Part shown: one piece after another, positions 7,118 to 31,527 of the stretch
Position numbering within the stretch: position 1 is the stretch's first letter
How the letters are laid out: each line of letters starts with the position of its first letter
Assembly: GCA_017455525.1 (NCBI GenBank)
Contig: JAFTAP010000048.1
Location: forward strand, 1-33,597
DNA: 33,597 nt
From: Lachnospiraceae bacterium
GTDB taxonomy: Bacteria > Bacillota > Clostridia > Lachnospirales > Lachnospiraceae
Direction of reading: 5' to 3'
Notes under the pieces: model-generated
What the model saw: the letters and a program-made list of their open reading frames with translations, nothing else
Told to the model about the DNA's origin: nothing
Databases searched by the model: none
Position numbers and translations under genes: made by a program

Positions 7118-7164
7118 TTATTTTTCCTCCAAATTCTAAAATCTATACTATATTCAGATAGTAC

Positions 7165-7239
7165 GAATTGCTCCGTGCTTTGCACTCTCGCAATTCTAAA
7201 GCCATTCGCAATCCGCCCTATCGGGCTGCTTGCTCATGT
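7165..7239. repeat. modular hairpin-rich intergenic repeat, copy 2
   Basis: The gap between oadB and oadA holds a nested hairpin GAATTGC-TCC-GTGC-TTT-GCAC-TCTC-GCAATTC (7165-7196) and a short hairpin GCCC-TATC-GGGC (7215-7226). The words GCTCCGT, CCATTCG-N-AATCCGC and CTCATGT occur in the same order as at 5-59. Lying inside an operon, it could act as an RNA spacer that sets the relative level of oadA, or it could be a passive mobile repeat. Confidence 0.5.
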
Positions 7240-7256
7240 CTTCCGACACCGCTTAT

Positions 7257-8384
7257 TCACACTATCCCAAAGACCGCCATGAACGTTCCTGCGACGACTG
7301 CGGTTCCTATGACTCCCGCCACGTTAGGTCCCATAGCGTGCATGAGCAGGAAATTCGTAGGATCCTCCTCCGCTCCGACCTTCTGTGAGACGCGAGCCGC
7401 CATAGGCACGGCAGAAACTCCCGCAGAGCCAATAAGCGGATTTATCTTACCGCCCGTGAGCACGCACATGAGCTTTCCAAGCAGGACTCCCGCCGCAGTA
7501 CCGAACATGAATGCTATAAGTCCCAAAGCGACTATCTTCAAGGTCGTGGCATTAAGGAAAGCCTCAGCCGATGTCGTAGCGCCTACCGATGTACCAAGCA
7601 GTATGACGACGATATACATAAGCGCATTTGAAGCCGTCTCCTGAAGCTGTCTTACGACCCCTGACTCACGGAAAAGATTACCGAGCATAAGCATGCCGAT
7701 AAGAGGAGCCGTAGTAGGCAGGATAAGTGATACCACCGTCGAAACTATTATCGGGAAAAGGATCTTCTCAAGCTTGGATACAGGACGAAGCTGCTCCATC
7801 TTGATGGCCCTCTCCTTCTTCGTGGTAAGCACCTTCATTATAGGCGGCTGTATGATAGGAACCAGCGACATATATGAATAAGCCGCAACCGCTATAGGTC
7901 CCATGATATTCGTCTGTCCGAGCTTCGATGCAAGGAATATGGATGTAGGACCGTCTGCTCCGCCTATAATGGATATAGCTGCGGCGGCCCTGTCGTTAAA
8001 GCCCATCGCGATAGCTCCGAAATACGCCGCGAATATACCGAACTGTGCAGCGGCGCCGAGCCAGAAGCTTCTGGGGTTAGCTATGAGCGGTCCGAAGTCC
8101 GTCATCGCTCCTACTCCCATGAATATAAGCGACGGCAGTATCGCCCACTCGTCGAGTTTGAAGAAATAATAGAGCAGTCCGCCTTCATTCATAATATCCG
8201 GATAGATATTAACGAGCAGCATGCCGAAAGCGATAGGCACGAGAAGCAAAGGCTCAAAGCCCTTTGCGATAGCAAGGTATAAGAATACGCAGGCTACCGC
8301 GATCATTATGATGTTCCCGACACTCATCGTAGCAAATGCTGACTGCTGGGCAAGGTTGCTCAGAGTGTTTGCTATATATGACAT
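7257..8384 (-). CDS. oadB: sodium ion-translocating decarboxylase subunit beta (OadB/MmdB/GcdB)
   Basis: This 375-aa multi-pass membrane protein decarboxylates carboxy-biotin and uses the energy to export Na+. Family landmarks are present: the GAMTDFGPL segment (residues 92-100), the [10 protein letters not shown] motif with the Na+-site Asp (D144), and the conserved C-terminal stretch [13 protein letters not shown]. About nine or more hydrophobic segments can be seen. GGAGG lies 10 bases upstream of the ATG. It follows the biotin carrier gene by 19 bp. Confidence 0.93.
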
Positions 8385-15920: not shown

Positions 15921-17105
15921 TCAGACCTCTACAGTCGAAGTATCTGAGAAATAATTCATAGTAGCCACAGGCTCTCCGTTCTTATAATAAACCCTGGGAA
16001 CCCTTTTCGTGAAGCAGGACACTATCTCATAGTTAAATCCGCCGTACATATTGGCAAGATGCTCCACGGTTATCTCTTCCTCGCCGTCACGCCCTATGAG
16101 CGTGACTTCGTCATAGTCGCAGGCTTCGGGGATATTCGTGATATCGACCATAACCTGATCCATGCACACCCTGCCCGCTATCGGGGCTCTCTTGCCTCGT
16201 ATCAGCACATAGCCTCTGTTTGAAAGCGCCCTCGGATAGCCGTCGCCATAGCCTGCCGGTATCGTCGCTATCCTCGACGGCCTCCTCGCCTTCCATGTGC
16301 CTCCGTAGCCCACCTCATACCCCGGCGGAACATCCTTAATATAAACTATATGCGATTTCAGGGCAAGCGCAGGGCGAAGCTCTATATTCTGCTTCACTTC
16401 TTTAGATGGCCATAGACCGTAAAGAGTTATGCCGGCTCTTACCATATCCATGTTAGCTTCCCTGATCTCTACTATGCCGGCGGAATTTGACGAATGCTTT
16501 AACCAGAAATCAATTCCTTCGTCATGCAGCAGCTCGACGTAAGCATTGAACTTCTTTATCTGCTCATAGGTAGGCATCTTGTCCTTCATGTCAGCCTTAG
16601 AGAAATGGGTGAATATACCTTCAAGCACGAGATTTCTTAAACCCGCTACCGTCTTGATAAGCTCGACGCTCGACTTATCAGCCTCTACGCCGATCCGTCC
16701 CATGCCTGTCTCGACCGCTATATGCACATACACTCTCCTCCCCTGTCTAACTGCCTCCTCAGAGAGCTCTCTTGCCATGTCCTCCTTGAATACTACAGGA
16801 CGGATGTCATTTGCTATGATGTCCTCGTAGCTCTCCGGGAAAGTATAGCCTAAGACAAGGATGGGCTTCCTTATATCATTATGCCTTAAGATAAGTGCTT
16901 CTTCGTCTGTAGCCACTGCAAAGCCCCAGAGGTAGTCGAGGTCTTCTATCTCTCTTGCGACTGCGACTGCGCCGTGACCGTATGCGTCAGTCTTTACGAC
17001 CGCAAGCATCTTAGTCCCCGGCTTCAGATTCCTGTGCATGCTTTCCATATTGAAACGGATAGCGTCTAAATCAATTCTTAAATATAGTCTTTTGTTTTCT
17101 TTCAT
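15921..17105 (-). CDS. alr: alanine racemase
   Basis: Alr is a PLP enzyme making D-alanine for peptidoglycan. The 394-aa protein starts MKENKRLYLRIDLDAI and has the PLP lysine in AVVKTDAYGHG (K38), the catalytic tyrosine in EVGYGGTW (near residue 278), the RVCMDQVMVD loop and a normal C-terminal domain. I reject a 20-codon upstream extension: those codons are translated from the arm of the 291-bp folded element (17122-17412). The true ATG lies 17 bases inside the gene side of that element. Only a poor ribosome site (CGGGAAAA) precedes it, so the element may influence expression. Confidence 0.95.
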   Translation of the reverse strand: MKENKRLYLRIDLDAIRFNMESMHRNLKPGTKMLAVVKTDAYGHGAVAVAREIEDLDYLWGFAVATDEEALILRHNDIRKPILVLGYTFPESYEDIIANDIRPVVFKEDMARELSEEAVRQGRRVYVHIAVETGMGRIGVEADKSSVELIKTVAGLRNLVLEGIFTHFSKADMKDKMPTYEQIKKFNAYVELLHDEGIDFWLKHSSNSAGIVEIREANMDMVRAGITLYGLWPSKEVKQNIELRPALALKSHIVYIKDVPPGYEVGYGGTWKARRPSRIATIPAGYGDGYPRALSNRGYVLIRGKRAPIAGRVCMDQVMVDITNIPEACDYDEVTLIGRDGEEEITVEHLANMYGGFNYEIVSCFTKRVPRVYYKNGEPVATMNYFSDTSTVEV

Positions 17106-17121
17106 TTTATTTTTCCCGTCC

Positions 17122-17412
17122 GGCTCGTAGGATATGCATATTTTCCATTTGTGGTTTTTTCTCACCTATATCACTAAGAAAGTGTATTTATGTTGTTTTT
17201 AAGTCACGGGGCCGGAGTTATTCACATCCATGTTCAGTAACTTCGGCACCAGACACGCACAGCGTGTCTAAACGGTGCTCAAAATATGCCAAAGGGCATA
17301 TTTTGCCTCGCAGGTACATCCTTGTACCTGCGCCCCTGGCTATGAAACACTTTCTAAGTGATATTACGGCTCGAAAAAGAACTGCATGGAAAACATGCAT
17401 ATCCTACGAACC
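17122..17412. repeat. 291-bp cloverleaf-like inverted-repeat element between nnr and alr
   Basis: The whole nnr-alr gap is one folded element. Its ends are imperfect inverted repeats of about 70 bp (17122-17192 and 17340-17412) that begin GG(C/T)TCGTAGGATATGCAT and end with an AGAAAGTGT block. Inside them a GGGGC/GCCCC stem (17208-17212 with 17332-17336) encloses four consecutive hairpins: CCGGAGTTA/TAACTTCGG (212-246), GCACC-AGACACGC-ACA-GCGTGTCT-N4-GGTGC (246-278), CAAAATATGCC/GGCATATTTTG (280-305) and GCAGGTAC/GTACCTGC (310-331; last digits of 17xxx). Two differences between the arms become G-U pairs only in minus-strand RNA. It could be a MITE-like mobile element or a structured RNA. No target duplication was found. 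Confidence 0.8.
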
Positions 17413-17421
17413 TACAATATA

Positions 17422-18906
17422 TTATCTGATATGCTTAATAATATCCCCCGCAAGCATATGGTCGGCGCCCAGCTCGGCGCAGGCTTCGTCTCCGGCTCTG
17501 CCGTGAAGGGCACAGCCTAAGGCGGCTGCCATGAAGCTGTCCGTGCTCCTGCCGCGGATGGATGCTATCATGCCTGTCAGCACATCACCGGAGCCTGCCG
17601 TGGCCATTCCGTTATTTCCGTTCGTATTTATTATCACATCGCCCTTCGGTGAAGCGGTTATCGTGCGGGCATCCTTAAGCACCGTTATTACTCCGTAGGA
17701 CTTAGAGAAGTCCCTTGCAGTAGAGATAAGATGCTTTGAAATCTCATCCACTCCTATGCCCGTAAGCCTTGCCATCTCACCCAGATGTGGAGTTATTATT
17801 ATATCTGCGGAGGCATCCGCAAGCATATTCGCATCGGATGATATGATATTAAGCGCATCGGCGTCTATCACGACCGGTACATCCGAGTTTGCTATCACAT
17901 ATTTCAATATGTCCCTTGCGGGATCGGAATCAGAAAGCCCAGGTCCTATCGCTATCGCGTCGCACCAGTCTATCGCTTTCTGCAGCGCTTCCTTGTCTAT
18001 CTTCTTATCGTATGTAGAAACTATCGCCTCAGGAAGCGCCGTCTGCACTATCTGCCTGTTGCTCTCGTCAGTGTAGATACGCACCATCCCGGAGCCTGAC
18101 CGCATGGCTGCCTCCGCGCATAGCACGGCTGCGCCCGCCATACCCTTAGAGCCGGCTACCACGAGTATCTTGCCATACGAGCCCTTATTCGTATAGGGAC
18201 TTCTTGGCGGAAGGGCTATCTCTGCATCATGGAAGATATGAATATCAGCGCCCCGCTCCATCACAGCAGAAGGTATACCTATGTCCTTAAGCGTGACTTC
18301 TCCGGAGTACATCGCTCCGGGGAATAATAAATGTCCCACTTTGAAGGAAGCAAATGCCACAGTCCTGTCAGCCTGCACGGTGACATCCCCTGCCTGTCCC
18401 GTAGATGCGTCAACTCCTGATGCTATATCAAGCGACAGCACGAACGCTCCGAGCTCATGCGCATTATTCATATAAGCCACGGCATCGGAAAACGCTCCCT
18501 CTATCCTGCGGTTAAGCGATATGCCGAAGAGCGCGTCCACAACGACATCATATACCGCATCGGGAAGCTCTTTCATCACCTTCACTTCGGGATATATCTT
18601 ATTAAGCAGGTCTATCTGATGCTTAAGTCCCTCGCTGTATTTATCCTTATCACCGAGTACGACCACATCAGGATAGCAGTCCCGCTCTGACAGTATCCTT
18701 GCGAGCGCTACGCCGTCGCCGCCGTTATTCCCCGGGCCGCATATAATAAGGACGCTCGCTTCCGTCACATCGATGGCATCCTCAAGCACCTGATAAGCAG
18801 CCATAGCGGCTCTCTCCATCAGCACCTCCTGATGAAGACCTATCTCCTTCTGTGTAATGTCGTCAGCAGCTTTCATCAATGAAGCATTAAGCACCGGTAT
18901 CATCAT
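17422..18906 (-). CDS. nnrE-nnrD: bifunctional NAD(P)H-hydrate epimerase / ADP-dependent NAD(P)H-hydrate dehydratase
   Basis: This 494-aa protein repairs hydrated NADH and NADPH (NADHX, NADPHX). The N-terminal YjeF_N epimerase domain (about residues 1-210) has the GPGNNGGDGVALAR motif and LDIASGVDASTG. The C-terminal ribokinase-like dehydratase (about 225-494) has VAGSKGMAGAAVLCAEAAMR, GPGLSDS, ITPHLGEMARL and the NGNNGMATAGSGDVLTG active-site motif. The start overlaps the coiled-coil gene by 4 bp (ATGA). A second ATG one codon later (18903) is better spaced from AGGAGG (6 rather than 3 bases), so either may be used. Confidence 0.95.
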   Translation of the reverse strand: MMIPVLNASLMKAADDITQKEIGLHQEVLMERAAMAAYQVLEDAIDVTEASVLIICGPGNNGGDGVALARILSERDCYPDVVVLGDKDKYSEGLKHQIDLLNKIYPEVKVMKELPDAVYDVVVDALFGISLNRRIEGAFSDAVAYMNNAHELGAFVLSLDIASGVDASTGQAGDVTVQADRTVAFASFKVGHLLFPGAMYSGEVTLKDIGIPSAVMERGADIHIFHDAEIALPPRSPYTNKGSYGKILVVAGSKGMAGAAVLCAEAAMRSGSGMVRIYTDESNRQIVQTALPEAIVSTYDKKIDKEALQKAIDWCDAIAIGPGLSDSDPARDILKYVIANSDVPVVIDADALNIISSDANMLADASADIIITPHLGEMARLTGIGVDEISKHLISTARDFSKSYGVITVLKDARTITASPKGDVIINTNGNNGMATAGSGDVLTGMIASIRGRSTDSFMAAALGCALHGRAGDEACAELGADHMLAGDIIKHIR

Positions 18907-19684: not shown

Positions 19685-19805
19685 ATAAGAGAAGCACCCG
19701 CATATGCGAGTGCCCTTTACTCTCTTATCTTTGTAAAAAATCGGATGGGCGGCGTATCCATCATATCAGGTTCCCTAAAGAGGGAGCGCAGGGTGCCTTT
19801 CCTGC
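19685..19805 (-). terminator. structured intergenic region with terminator-like hairpins
   Basis: The 221-bp gap between the PBECR-like gene and the coiled-coil gene holds a run of stem-loops. Read leftwards they are GCAGG/CCTGC (19788-19805), TCCCT-loop-AGGGA (19772-19785) and GATGG/CCATC (19744-19762) followed by TTTTTT (19740-19735). A longer hairpin ATAAGAGA/TCTCTTAT (19685-19728) comes last; its inner GCAC/GTGC stem pairs fully only in minus-strand RNA, through a G-U pair. The GATGG hairpin plus T6 is the best terminator candidate for the icd-to-PBECR transcript. The remaining hairpins are unexplained. Confidence 0.45.
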
Positions 19806-19822
19806 TCGTCAACTTTTTACAT

Positions 19823-26683: not shown

Positions 26684-29600
26684 TTACGCCGCCTGTGCCT
26701 GCGGCTTCGGGTCTTTCTTAAGGAACAAGAAAATCGAAAGTGCCGCAAGCCCAAAGCTTATGAACCACTTAGGCGAGATCGGATCTCCGGTCTTAGGCGT
26801 ATTGTCAAGCGTCCCTATCGCAAGATTCGATGTGTCAACATAGAATCCGTAAGGCGAGAAGTGCGGAGCCACAAAGGTCGCGCAAGGTCTGCCCTCCAAG
26901 GTCGAGAACTGCACGTTAAGGTCCTCAAGATCCCCTGCTCCGTCAACCGTGGCCACCCTGTTATTAGTGCCATAAGCCTCCATAGATGTCGGCAGAGGAA
27001 GCGTAAGCGTCACGGAAATTCCCGTCGTGTCTATGTCGTTGCCATTCTCATCCTTCACGTCGATATCCATAGAGAAGTAGCGGATATTATCAAGGCTTCC
27101 GTATCTCCTTAATAGCGCCTCTCTGAATGATGCCTCCGCCTCATCGCTCTTCGTGATATTAACCTGATAACCGTCAGCCGTACCGCCATTTATGGCATCA
27201 ATATGCGCAGCCCTAAGCATATCTTCAAGCTCATCCACCGAACCGCCGTTACCGCTGTTATAGTAATTCCTGTTCACGACAGTTGTGCCGGAGTTTGTAC
27301 CTCTTGAACCACCTGAACCACCGGTTCCCGAAGTACCGGAACCACCCGCCGAACTGCTCGAACCCGACGCAGCAGAACTAGAAGAAGACCTTGCCGAAGA
27401 ACTTGAGCTGGAACCGCCACTTGAGCTTTCTGATTTCTCTTCCATGCGGAAATTATAAGTATAAGTGCCTACATACTTATCGCCCTTACCAGTAATCTTC
27501 ACATCGGCATGATGCGCAGAGGTCTTCTTAAACGACCCCTGTAAATAATCAGTATCTTTAACCAGGTCAGTACTTGTTGTTGCATCAGTAAGCGCAACCG
27601 TAGCCTCTATATTGTCATCACTGTCAATAGTAGCCTCTGAAACCTGAATGGTCACGGACTTCGTTCCGTCATCCGAGGTATTCTTAGATAAATCCTTCTT
27701 TATATCATAGTAGAAATTCTGTATCGTCCCCTCATTCCTGCTCTTAAGCTCCTTGGCATAACTACCCTTAAATTGTATCTGAACATATCCGGTAGCTTTA
27801 CCCAGTCCGGGTGACACGGTTCCATATCCTTTGACCTTATAATCAGTGCCCTCTGTAAGCTCCGTACCATTCACCTTATCCAGGATATACCTAACTTTCG
27901 GCTTACCCTCATTCCAGTACTGGAAAGTGTTGCTGTACTTATTCTTGGGATTATCTACAGCGCTCCTGTCAGGACCGTTAAGTATTAGGTTCACAGACAA
28001 CGAACTAGGGGGTTCACTACTACTTCCACTAGATTTAGAAGATGAACTAGATGATGAGGTAGATGATGAGCTAGATGCATTAATTGTAAGACTTCCTGAA
28101 AGCGTACCTTCATATGATGTCCCTACCGTCCCAGTAATAGTAAAGGGATATGTATTAGCATCCGTTTTACTTCCTTGATCATTTGTTCCATCCCAAACCC
28201 ACGTGTAATCACTCTTAGGATTAAGAATATCGTCAGTTCCTGTTGCTCCTTTCTTCTGAACATAGAAATATGGATCTACACCAGTATTTGTGCCTACTGC
28301 ATCAAGCGATATTGGCTTTCCAGTATAATCAGCGAATAAAATACCATTTGCCGGTTTTATTTCATAGTTCTGTGATAATAGATTATTATCAGAAGTCCCA
28401 TCATTTATATTAGCATAGCCAATTATCGTTCCTCCTTCATATGAAGAGCCGGCTGTTCCAGTCACAGTAAATTTTTGAGAGCCCTCCTCTTTAAAATAAG
28501 TCGGATCCCATTCATAATGTTTTCCAGGCAAAAGAATATCCGTATCATCATTCATATTAACAACACAAAAGTCTCCTTTTGTCTTCGATGAGGAAGCAGT
28601 CCATGTGGCCTTTCCATTGGTTAATTGCTTAGGGTCACTTTCCTTTCTAATCACAATCATATACTCACTTAATGGATTATCTGATCCTGTCTCCACTATT
28701 GTAAATGAAGCTCCCCCTTTTGTACCTGTATATGTTTGACCAAGTGCAGTAATAGAAAATGGAACAACCTGTGCTTTTGTTAATTGTGTTTTATCAATAA
28801 CCAGTTCATAATCTTCTCCTGGCTCTAAAGTTCTCTTCATTTCCTTATTTGTATCTTCATCTACATATGAATAATCCACATAGAAATCACAAACAGAACC
28901 ATCATCAGATGTCCCAGCTTTCCAAGACACTGCTGTTCCATCACTAGGTAATTCTTTAGTCTTATTATTAATATGTATACTACATTGAGATAACGAAACC
29001 CTCTTTTCAGCATCAATTGTACCTAAGTAAATCAGATTATCTTTTGTATCAGATGAATCCTCACCATCACCTGTACATAAAATATATGTCATATCTTTCG
29101 CACTTTTACTTCTAAAATAATATGGTTCTTCTTTAGCATTAGTATGATAATCAAATTTACTTCTTTTTTCTCCATAATTAATAAATTCATTATAAGCTCT
29201 AATTAGTGGCGTTTGATTGTCTGAAGAATGAGATCTCATGTTTTGGAATGCACCATCTCCTATTGATCCTACATTTACCCCCAAAGTTATATCAGTAATT
29301 GAGTTTGCACTTACAAAACAATATGCCGGTATTTTCTTGATATTAGACCCCTCTGTTGAAAAAATTCTAAGATTCTTATTCCTAGAAAAAGCATAGTCAT
29401 TAATTTGTGTAACCTGAACACTCTTCCCATTAAGTTCAATTTTATTGGGAACTGTATACGATCCCGAAGGATTGTTTTCCAATGCCTCCACTATCGTCAA
29501 GTTAGAATCGGACGAACTTACAGGAGCATAAATAATCCCCTTCTCTTTATCTGAATAACAATAGGGATTAAATTCATTAATTGAGACACTTGTCAAATTT

Positions 29601-31477
29601 GTTCCAAAGAATGGCAAAGCACCTATTAATCTCAAATCTGTAGAATTAAGATTTGCCTCATTTAGATTTTCACATGCTCTAAATTCATAGTCATTAATAA
29701 CTTGAATTCCATCCATTCTAATCCTTCTTAATGTATCATCACCTCTAAAAATAGTATTACTAATCTCATGTATTCCAGACGGCAATAATATCTCTGCTAC
29801 TGAGGGCTTGGTTGTTATCGCCTCTGAAGTAGTATTACCTGCAACACCATATAACACATAAGGACTTTCTCCTTTTACAATCACATAAGGGCTACTCTTA
29901 CTACCATCAATATTCCCATACCCCTTGAAATCTATTGTGTGATTCATACAATACAAATATGGCTCACAATCATTCTCTGCCATACTAAGGACAAAGAAAC
30001 TAGGTGCAATCGTCTCATTAGGTAGTGCATTATCTCCACTAAGTTTAGTGTCTTTTGAATCAAACTGAACATAGCTTAAACTTGATATATTCAAGGCATA
30101 GTCATCTATCGAAGTAATTGTTTCTGGAACCACAATCGATGATATACTCCCCGTAGACTTGACCCTTTTGAAAGCATCCTTGTCTATACTTTGTACAGTA
30201 ATAAGACTTTCCGAATTGTTCATTGATACAGTTTTAGGAATAAAAACACCAGCAGATCCATACGTATCATAATCAAAATCCATTAATTTGCCGTCACTAG
30301 CCCTAACTGTAAATGCACTTGTAGTCCATTCGTCATCCGGACTCTTATACTTAATCCCTTTAGATAAACAATAATCAAATGCTTTAGTATGATTATCCGG
30401 ATTGTTTTGATTTAATCTATAGCCTTCAACATAGAATGACGACGTCTTTTTCTTAACGTCATCGTTAAAAGCACCATCTTTAATTTCAATATCATTATTA
30501 TTTGATGTACCGCTATTATTAAGTTTTATATATGGTATACTATTCGAAGCACTAAACGTTCCAGCTTCTAATGTATTCAGAGTACCTGGTATTTCTACAT
30601 AGCTAGTAATTCCGGAACAACCCTCGAAAGCTTTTCCATCTAAACGTGTAATTTTAGCTGGTAAAGTAATGGTAGCCAATGCTGTGCAGTTCACAAAAGC
30701 ATCTGCCTCTATTACAGTAACTGTATCAGCAAAAGTAATTGCATTAACACTAGTATTAGCAAATGTATTTGATTGTACAGTCACAGTACCCGAACTAGGT
30801 CCTTTTATATCCAACGTCTGTGACAAGCCGCTTTCTGCAAAAGCATAGTCGCCATATTGCTCAACATAATCAGAAGGAATGCTACTGATACTCTTACACT
30901 GATAAAAAGCATAACTGCCTATTTTCTTTAAGGTCGAAGAAAAACGAACTATCTCCTTTCCCAAGCTCTCACAGCCCCTAAACGCATCATTCTCAATCGT
31001 CTCAACTCCAGCACCAACTATAGATTTTAAGTTTTTACAATTCTGAAAAGCAGCATCATTTATTACCTTAACAGAATCTGGCAGATTGACTTGGGAAACA
31101 GAATTATTATCCTTAAACGTCTCCGTATCAACAGCAACAACATTTAAAACACCTCTACCTATCGAGCTAGCAGTATCTATTGATTTTGGTACATCATATT
31201 TTCCAGTAGCAAGAGGATCCGTATCCTCAACGCCCACTAAAGATAAACCATCCGTAACTTCTTTAAAGTAAAACTTATGATAATTATCATCAAAGCCGAA
31301 AATAGTTGTATCATTTTTTCCTGAATTGGCCGCCTGACCTGGTGTAGCCGGAATAGCCGCCACCACCAGCGCCGTCACCATAAGAAGCGCCGCAATAGTT
31401 CTCCTTGCTGCCTTCTTCAAGTATCTCCTGCCGTGTTTTCTCGAATTTTTCTTAGTAGATTTCTTATTCGTAGCCAT
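26684..31477 (-). CDS. giant sortase-anchored leucine-rich repeat surface protein
   Basis: This 1597-aa protein starts at the ATG with AAGGAG 8 bases upstream; a GTG two codons earlier is too close to that site. A Lys/Arg-rich signal peptide ends near PGQA (about residue 50). Three blocks of LRR_5/BspA repeats cover about 70-330, 385-500 and 550-720. Five spaced modules follow with an ITG-x-G-xxYxG-like core at about 900, 1000, 1110, 1230 and 1325. Two Ser-rich linkers occur, then a TVVNRNYY motif, a C-terminal domain, and the wall signal TPKTGD (about 1557), a hydrophobic helix and KK. BspA-like proteins bind host matrix or particles. The middle is AT-rich, both ends are GC-richer. Confidence 0.88.
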   Translation of the reverse strand: MATNKKSTKKNSRKHGRRYLKKAARRTIAALLMVTALVVAAIPATPGQAANSGKNDTTIFGFDDNYHKFYFKEVTDGLSLVGVEDTDPLATGKYDVPKSIDTASSIGRGVLNVVAVDTETFKDNNSVSQVNLPDSVKVINDAAFQNCKNLKSIVGAGVETIENDAFRGCESLGKEIVRFSSTLKKIGSYAFYQCKSISSIPSDYVEQYGDYAFAESGLSQTLDIKGPSSGTVTVQSNTFANTSVNAITFADTVTVIEADAFVNCTALATITLPAKITRLDGKAFEGCSGITSYVEIPGTLNTLEAGTFSASNSIPYIKLNNSGTSNNNDIEIKDGAFNDDVKKKTSSFYVEGYRLNQNNPDNHTKAFDYCLSKGIKYKSPDDEWTTSAFTVRASDGKLMDFDYDTYGSAGVFIPKTVSMNNSESLITVQSIDKDAFKRVKSTGSISSIVVPETITSIDDYALNISSLSYVQFDSKDTKLSGDNALPNETIAPSFFVLSMAENDCEPYLYCMNHTIDFKGYGNIDGSKSSPYVIVKGESPYVLYGVAGNTTSEAITTKPSVAEILLPSGIHEISNTIFRGDDTLRRIRMDGIQVINDYEFRACENLNEANLNSTDLRLIGALPFFGTNLTSVSINEFNPYCYSDKEKGIIYAPVSSSDSNLTIVEALENNPSGSYTVPNKIELNGKSVQVTQINDYAFSRNKNLRIFSTEGSNIKKIPAYCFVSANSITDITLGVNVGSIGDGAFQNMRSHSSDNQTPLIRAYNEFINYGEKRSKFDYHTNAKEEPYYFRSKSAKDMTYILCTGDGEDSSDTKDNLIYLGTIDAEKRVSLSQCSIHINNKTKELPSDGTAVSWKAGTSDDGSVCDFYVDYSYVDEDTNKEMKRTLEPGEDYELVIDKTQLTKAQVVPFSITALGQTYTGTKGGASFTIVETGSDNPLSEYMIVIRKESDPKQLTNGKATWTASSSKTKGDFCVVNMNDDTDILLPGKHYEWDPTYFKEEGSQKFTVTGTAGSSYEGGTIIGYANINDGTSDNNLLSQNYEIKPANGILFADYTGKPISLDAVGTNTGVDPYFYVQKKGATGTDDILNPKSDYTWVWDGTNDQGSKTDANTYPFTITGTVGTSYEGTLSGSLTINASSSSSTSSSSSSSKSSGSSSEPPSSLSVNLILNGPDRSAVDNPKNKYSNTFQYWNEGKPKVRYILDKVNGTELTEGTDYKVKGYGTVSPGLGKATGYVQIQFKGSYAKELKSRNEGTIQNFYYDIKKDLSKNTSDDGTKSVTIQVSEATIDSDDNIEATVALTDATTSTDLVKDTDYLQGSFKKTSAHHADVKITGKGDKYVGTYTYNFRMEEKSESSSGGSSSSSSARSSSSSAASGSSSSAGGSGTSGTGGSGGSRGTNSGTTVVNRNYYNSGNGGSVDELEDMLRAAHIDAINGGTADGYQVNITKSDEAEASFREALLRRYGSLDNIRYFSMDIDVKDENGNDIDTTGISVTLTLPLPTSMEAYGTNNRVATVDGAGDLEDLNVQFSTLEGRPCATFVAPHFSPYGFYVDTSNLAIGTLDNTPKTGDPISPKWFISFGLAALSIFLFLKKDPKPQAQAA

Positions 31478-31527
31478 TTCCACTGCTCCTTCATATTTAC
31501 AAATATACTAACCTATCAGTAATGCAA

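Follow-up and report, generated by a model that had tools for sequence, protein, structure and literature searches.

A TwoAYGGAY repeat RNA between nnr and alr of a Lachnospiraceae bacterium as a candidate CsrA decoy

The 291-bp palindromic element located between nnr and alr in the genome of a Lachnospiraceae bacterium (assembly GCA_017455525.1) is a structured RNA of a known family, TwoAYGGAY (Rfam RF01731), in a four-hairpin variant. It is best read as one copy of a dispersed, multi-copy, non-coding repeat, probably a CsrA decoy, the copy between nnr and alr being an insertion beside alr. The window analysed, of 33,597 nucleotides, is one entire contig of a genome of 2.72 Mb in 110 contigs. 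On the minus strand, the stretch occupied by the element rendered a single cmscan match, which covers the full length of the RF01731 model. The element, its parts and its two neighbouring genes are located as follows.

15921..17105, minus strand: alr, alanine racemase (PF01168/PF00842); the listed ORF, 15921-17165, has a false N-terminal extension from the 3' arm of the element
17122..17412, minus strand: whole element, based on the minus-strand fold, the inverted arms and the copies in its own genome; the RNA lies on the gene strand, in the order nnr, element, alr
17122..17148, minus strand: 3' outer arm of the RNA, based on inverted-arm pairing and covariation
17154..17380, minus strand: RF01731 TwoAYGGAY match (model positions 1-168, 58.3 bits, cut-off 43)
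17208..17212, minus strand: GCCCC half of the inner closing stem, paired with 17332-17336
17214..17243, minus strand: hairpin 2, loop AUGGAU, with CATGGATG at 17225-17232
17244..17306, minus strand: 63-nt two-hairpin module, extra between hairpins 1 and 2 with respect to the copy on contig C10
17309..17332, minus strand: hairpin 1, 9-bp stem, loop AAGGAU, with an exact SELEX consensus at 17316-17327
17332..17336, minus strand: GGGGC half of the inner closing stem, paired with 17208-17212
17386..17412, minus strand: 5' outer arm of the RNA, whose letters vary among copies while complementarity is retained
17422..18906, minus strand: nnr, NAD(P)HX epimerase/dehydratase (PF03853/PF01256), the upstream neighbour

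The terminal arms, of 27 nt, form 25 Watson-Crick and two G-U pairs on the minus (gene) strand, with no A-C mismatch, and the minimum free energy of the element is -144.6 kcal/mol for the plus strand and -141.4 kcal/mol for the minus strand, compared to means of -72.7 and -78.1 for shuffled sequences (z = -13.1 and -13.9, respectively; 0 of 100 shuffles per strand were equally stable). The palindrome recognised in a preliminary description is thus confirmed with the same limits, as are the inner GGGGC/GCCCC stem that surrounds four hairpins in the predicted fold and the two differences between the arms that become G-U pairs on the gene strand only. The claim that nearly every base can pair was slightly overstated, because internal loops interrupt the long stem. 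That both ends translate to WK-x-CISYEP also holds (WKICISYEP on the alr side, from the translation, and WKTCISYEP in the other arm, by eye), and WKICISYEP, which is the 3' arm in translation, accounts for the false N-terminal extension of alr. The element does lie close upstream of the alr start, at a spacing of 16 bases from the likely ATG at 17105, not the 17 bases first given.

Eight RF01731 matches were found in the genome that carries the window, the window copy having the lowest score of the eight, probably because of its insertion. In a sample of 61 genomes (this one and 60 relatives), 19 contained the element, with 98 matches, 95 of them exceeding the curated cut-off, and a maximum of 13 per genome. 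All 19 carriers belong to one genus, in which the element is present in 19 of the 37 genomes with a copy number ranging from 0 to 13, and 0 of the 24 genomes elsewhere in this set carried it. At broader scales, matches were found in 22 of the 295 genomes of an order sample (18 above the cut-off) and in 28 of the 291 genomes of a class sample (20 above the cut-off), with more than one match in 18 of those 22 and in 21 of those 28, copy counts that are lower bounds because nine candidates per genome were scored. Second copies, whose absence together with a lack of covariation in orthologous nnr-alr gaps would have removed both the structured-RNA and the mobile-element readings of the preliminary description, exist in its own genome and in its relatives. 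Being multi-copy (8), non-coding and bounded by terminal inverted repeats, the element has three of the traits by which MITEs are recognised. The window element gave no blastn match in plasmids and phages, and a search of viral contigs with one degenerate pattern of the element gave none either. The window also holds, on the minus strand, two Clostridiales-1 RNAs (RF01699) at 1-132 and 7156-7267, a family that is likewise multi-copy, with at least nine matches in this genome, as well as a skipping-rope RNA (RF02924, 54.7 bits) at 19736-19817 and a gene at 26684-31483 for a protein of 1599 aa whose leucine-rich repeats are of the BspA type (PF13306).

For the analysis of structure, 70 of the 98 copies were aligned, the 28 others being excluded for incomplete flanks, N in a flank, an arm score <22 or short cores; five of these 28 had arm scores of 40-51 and were absent from the region table. 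Comparison with the copy on contig C10 of the same genome showed that the window copy has 63 additional bases, at 17244-17306, the junction being otherwise identical, and that these bases are predicted to fold as two hairpins, so that the four back-to-back hairpins of the preliminary description are the two hairpins of the family together with an inserted pair. Among the 70 aligned copies, five have the module at this internal position, namely that of the window and two each in genomes G020 and G023. In the copy on contig C50 of the window genome it is located in the 5' stem, and module-like sequence is found, in several contexts, at other hairpin-rich sites of that genome. Three such hairpin-rich loci (L005, L006 and L010, on contigs C31, C7 and C48) combine the module with a similar ATGTTT-type left end and different adjoining hairpins. 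With respect to the motif that names the family, loop 2 (AUGGAU) conforms to AYGGAY, while loop 1 (AAGGAU) has A instead of Y, yet matches CANGGANG; at least two AYGGAY motifs are present in 47 of the 70 aligned copies.

The 27 pairs of the five helices are standard pairs in 93.0% of the cells of the alignment, with changes on both sides in 520 cells, percentages that in the outer arms are biased upward because the selection of copies preferred those whose arms pair well. The covariation score of 0.677, compared to 0.205 in shuffled alignments, was attained by 0 of 500 shuffles, and slid controls gave at most 0.164; two measures that count pairs showed a weaker excess, 8 and 31 of 500 shuffles reaching the observed value. 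Each GGA loop is closed by an invariant C-G pair (70/70), and the outer arms vary in sequence between copies, yet their pairs covary. The structured-RNA claim is thus upheld by the RF01731 match together with covariation, the latter measured on dispersed copies and not on nnr-alr orthologues. We had also considered that the outer arms could be derived from the target, since, when 48 copies were aligned on their outer ends, the arms were 28% identical from copy to copy and 92% identical within a copy, an idea that was dropped because the inner-anchored alignment shows that the arms are homologous and covarying.

On the RF01731 strand, in the 68 copies retained after removal of 15 of 83 with an arm score <30, the ratio of G-U to A-C in the outer pairs was 24:13 at a depth of 14 pairs (p 0.10), 41:14 at 18 pairs, 50:18 at 22 pairs (p 1.3e-4) and 51:22 at 26 pairs (p 9e-4), p-values that, like those below, are too small because the copies are related. 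The well-aligned helices gave 39 G-U and 10 A-C, the outer helix contributing 29:9 (p 0.0017), and in 77 of the 98 copies the isolated mismatches of the entire stem came to 77:46 (p 0.0066), with the reverse, 34:76, at edge mismatches. No excess was observed when pairs were counted crudely on rigid columns taken from the fold of the window copy, which include the poorly aligned inner stem (183 vs 218); this count and the weaker excess at a depth of 14 pairs weigh against the decoy reading. Taken together, the G-U/A-C asymmetry gives moderate support to an RNA transcribed from the RF01731 strand, as judged from sequence. A dependence of the wobble on the orientation of the host gene was also considered and discarded, the ratio being 25:17 for sense copies and 22:16 for antisense ones.

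The connection with CsrA is based on the loops. The SELEX consensus for CsrA, as given in PMC7652899, is RUACARGGAUGU, with GGA in a hairpin hexaloop, preceded by ACA and followed by GU, and loop 1 with its closing pairs, GUACAAGGAUGU, is an exact instance of it at 17316-17327, a predicted site. The exact consensus is present in 8 of the 70 aligned copies, and at least two CANGGANG motifs in 68 of the 70, and within the RF01731 match in 91 of the 98. Binding of CsrA to TwoAYGGAY had been predicted by motif matching in 2014 (PMC4333381). On the other hand, the SELEX hairpins described in PMC7652899 mostly have no more than four contiguous pairs, compared to the 9-bp stem of hairpin 1, and a consensus scan detected 0 sigma-70-like promoters in 17000-17800, both of which count against a decoy. 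The genome contains one csrA gene, on contig C28, which adjoins fliW and a gene with a flagellin domain.

The distribution of CsrA fits the decoy reading, as far as sequence comparison can tell, and is confounded by taxonomy. In the class sample, CsrA is present in 24 of the 28 element genomes and in 71 of the 263 others, or, by genus (scored positive if any member has CsrA), in 20 of the 20 element-bearing genera and in 44 of the 161 others; in the order sample, which shares four element genomes with the class sample, the figures are 22 of 22 vs 155 of 273 for genomes and 12 of 12 vs 75 of 118 for genera. CsrA is however also common where the element is lacking, and within the same genus there is no contrast at all (15 of 19 genomes with the element vs 14 of 18 without). 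RF01699, an unrelated RNA family taken as a control, has a comparable though narrower association, with 8 of 9 cases in CsrA genomes, in three families, so that taxonomy explains part of the co-occurrence. Four element genomes, all of one family and 80-95% complete, had no CsrA match, which suggests an absence beyond what incompleteness alone would give, and is a further point against the decoy.

The arrangement of the copies relative to genes bears on whether the element is a leader that acts in cis. Using crude longest-ORF calls, both neighbours could be called for 73 copies: the RNA runs in sense to the two genes in 24 of these and antisense to the two in 23, and 11 lie between convergent and 15 between divergent genes; the RNA strand carries the left gene in 38 of 80 cases and the right gene in 46 of 91, so that orientation to the downstream gene is not consistent. 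This random orientation makes it decidedly unlikely that the RNA controls alr translation from within the nnr-alr transcript, for example through CsrA or a ligand that alters access to the start 16 bases downstream, although its strand is that of the operon, it abuts the alr start and Rfam labels RF01731 as Cis-reg. In Weinberg 2010 (PMC2864571), TwoAYGGAY is a probable RNA whose table entry for cis-regulation is 'n'. Moreover, 0 of the 23 readable nnr-alr gaps of relatives of the same genus contain RF01731, the gap being near-empty in G021, whose Alr is 88% identical. The preliminary description raised the possibility that the element tunes D-alanine synthesis; a dedicated alr switch of this kind is unsupported, and the fact that the element is a dispersed repeat argues against it. 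One terminator-like hairpin was found, at 17399-17383, where 0.9 were expected by chance. Two of the nnr-alr gaps hold other palindromes: one of ca. 50 nt, solo, made of related end sequence and with the same end motif, that is perhaps a remnant of an element (L080, G031:C126), and a different hairpin-rich element without RF01731 match, with perfect 22-nt terminal repeats, a subterminal ATGTTT/AAACAT motif and CTTACACAGAGTATA on its left (L067, G017:C83).

With regard to how the copies spread, the core tree clusters them in part by genome (31 label changes vs a mean of 53.6 after shuffling, 0 of 200 shuffles having so few), all four G012 copies and 10 of the 11 G023 copies forming clades, while G026, G001 and others behave like the shuffles. 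The four G012 copies also have left-flank sequence in common, which may point to a longer repeat unit in that genome. This clustering, the eight copies and the empty sites largely sustain the earlier suggestion of a non-autonomous mobile element as regards a dispersed, putatively mobile, non-coding repeat. At one site inspected by eye, no duplication of the target was evident. A purely selfish MITE/REP-like palindrome that plays no part in the CsrA network, is spread by an enzyme acting at the ends or hairpins of the DNA and keeps its loops for another reason would account for these properties, for the copy number of 0-13 within the genus and for the presence of the module in several contexts, as well as for a motif, ACAGTGTA, chosen post hoc and searched with one mismatch allowed, that occurs to the left of the arm in 13 of 76 flanks vs 1 of 76 control stretches and is possibly an end or a binding site. 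We regard the selfish repeat as rather doubtful, since GGA loops invariant on one strand, covarying stems and an excess of G-U, seen in most of the counts, speak for selection on RNA, and since this genome lacks a Y1 transposase (PF01797), the one mobilising enzyme sought. The latter had been considered as a partner of the REP (RAYT) type and was rejected, PF01797 being present in 8 of the 19 element genomes vs 8 of the 18 genomes of the same genus without it. The flanks of six copies (L126, L127, L129, L136, L153 and L176) contain inverted GGGAC-rich repeats of another kind.

It can also be the case that the sites are old and inherited, and that recombination homogenises the cores within a genome while the outer arms diverge. 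Both flanks are common to a copy in another genome in 18 of the 98 copies, and at least one flank in 26; at two of these loci (G026:C5/G029:C49 and G013:C14/G026:C146) the cores group by genome and not by locus, and same-genome pairs of G020 and of the window genome have alike cores with unlike arms (identities of 0.976/0.438 and 0.957/0.438). Such pairs could result from renewal of the arms on duplication or from gene conversion of the cores. In G012 pairs the arms are fairly alike (0.75-1.0), and the closest cross-genome pairs retain the likeness of both core and arms. Fixed loci with gene conversion nevertheless appear unlikely, in view of the 72 copies that have no flank match (flanks fetched up to about 640 nt, some ended by contig ends) and of the absence of the element from the nnr-alr gap of relatives. 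An in-place inversion was considered at G001:C221/G026:C199/G029:C18, where the flanking genes match in opposite orientation, and was set aside as indistinguishable from independent insertion, because the sequence just outside the arms fails to align by eye.

We thus return to the CsrA decoy as the best explanation. The transcribed repeat would present two hairpins on a long imperfect stem, and their loops, AAGGAU and AUGGAU, closed by the invariant C-G pair, would be CsrA-type sites. CsrA would bind both loops, each copy being in that case a small CsrA decoy, and the eight copies would together offer sixteen sites to the CsrA of this cell, the gene for which adjoins fliW. The nnr-alr copy would be an insertion, absent from the relatives examined, that lies on the gene strand and has the extra two-hairpin module. 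Transcription, CsrA binding and sequestration by the element are what we infer.

If the repeats do bind CsrA, a dispersed repeat would be a dosage-tunable RNA sponge. A wider proposal, which we advance tentatively, is that a spreading repeat family, transposable or otherwise, took CsrA decoys through FliW-CsrA Clostridia, with copy number setting CsrA titration and plug-in modules modifying the sponge. Elements of the TwoAYGGAY type are found dispersed in many Clostridia, and a genome that has FliW and CsrA along with sixteen conserved hairpins of the CsrA type allows the question to be put to a direct test in a cultured relative. In the passages of the literature consulted, no description of TwoAYGGAY/RF01731 as a dispersed repeat was found.

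The window copy has in common with the RF01731 family the full-length match above the gathering score and the two GGA-loop hairpins on a long stem, and differs from the model in the 63-nt two-hairpin module and in arms that reach past the model ends. The CsrB, CsrC and RsmZ sRNAs of Gammaproteobacteria bind CsrA through GGA-loop hairpins, as is generally known and described in PMC7652899, and the element would act alike. They have many sites in one sRNA gene, whereas the element has two sites per copy in many dispersed copies; the csrA of its host adjoins fliW, and its action as a decoy is a prediction from sequence. REP/BIME, BOX and other MITE-like repeats are, like the element, small, non-coding, palindromic, dispersed and modular. 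The element differs from them in having no target duplication discernible by eye at one site and no Y1/RAYT partner in its own genome, and in that the loops of its RNA are strongly constrained on one strand.
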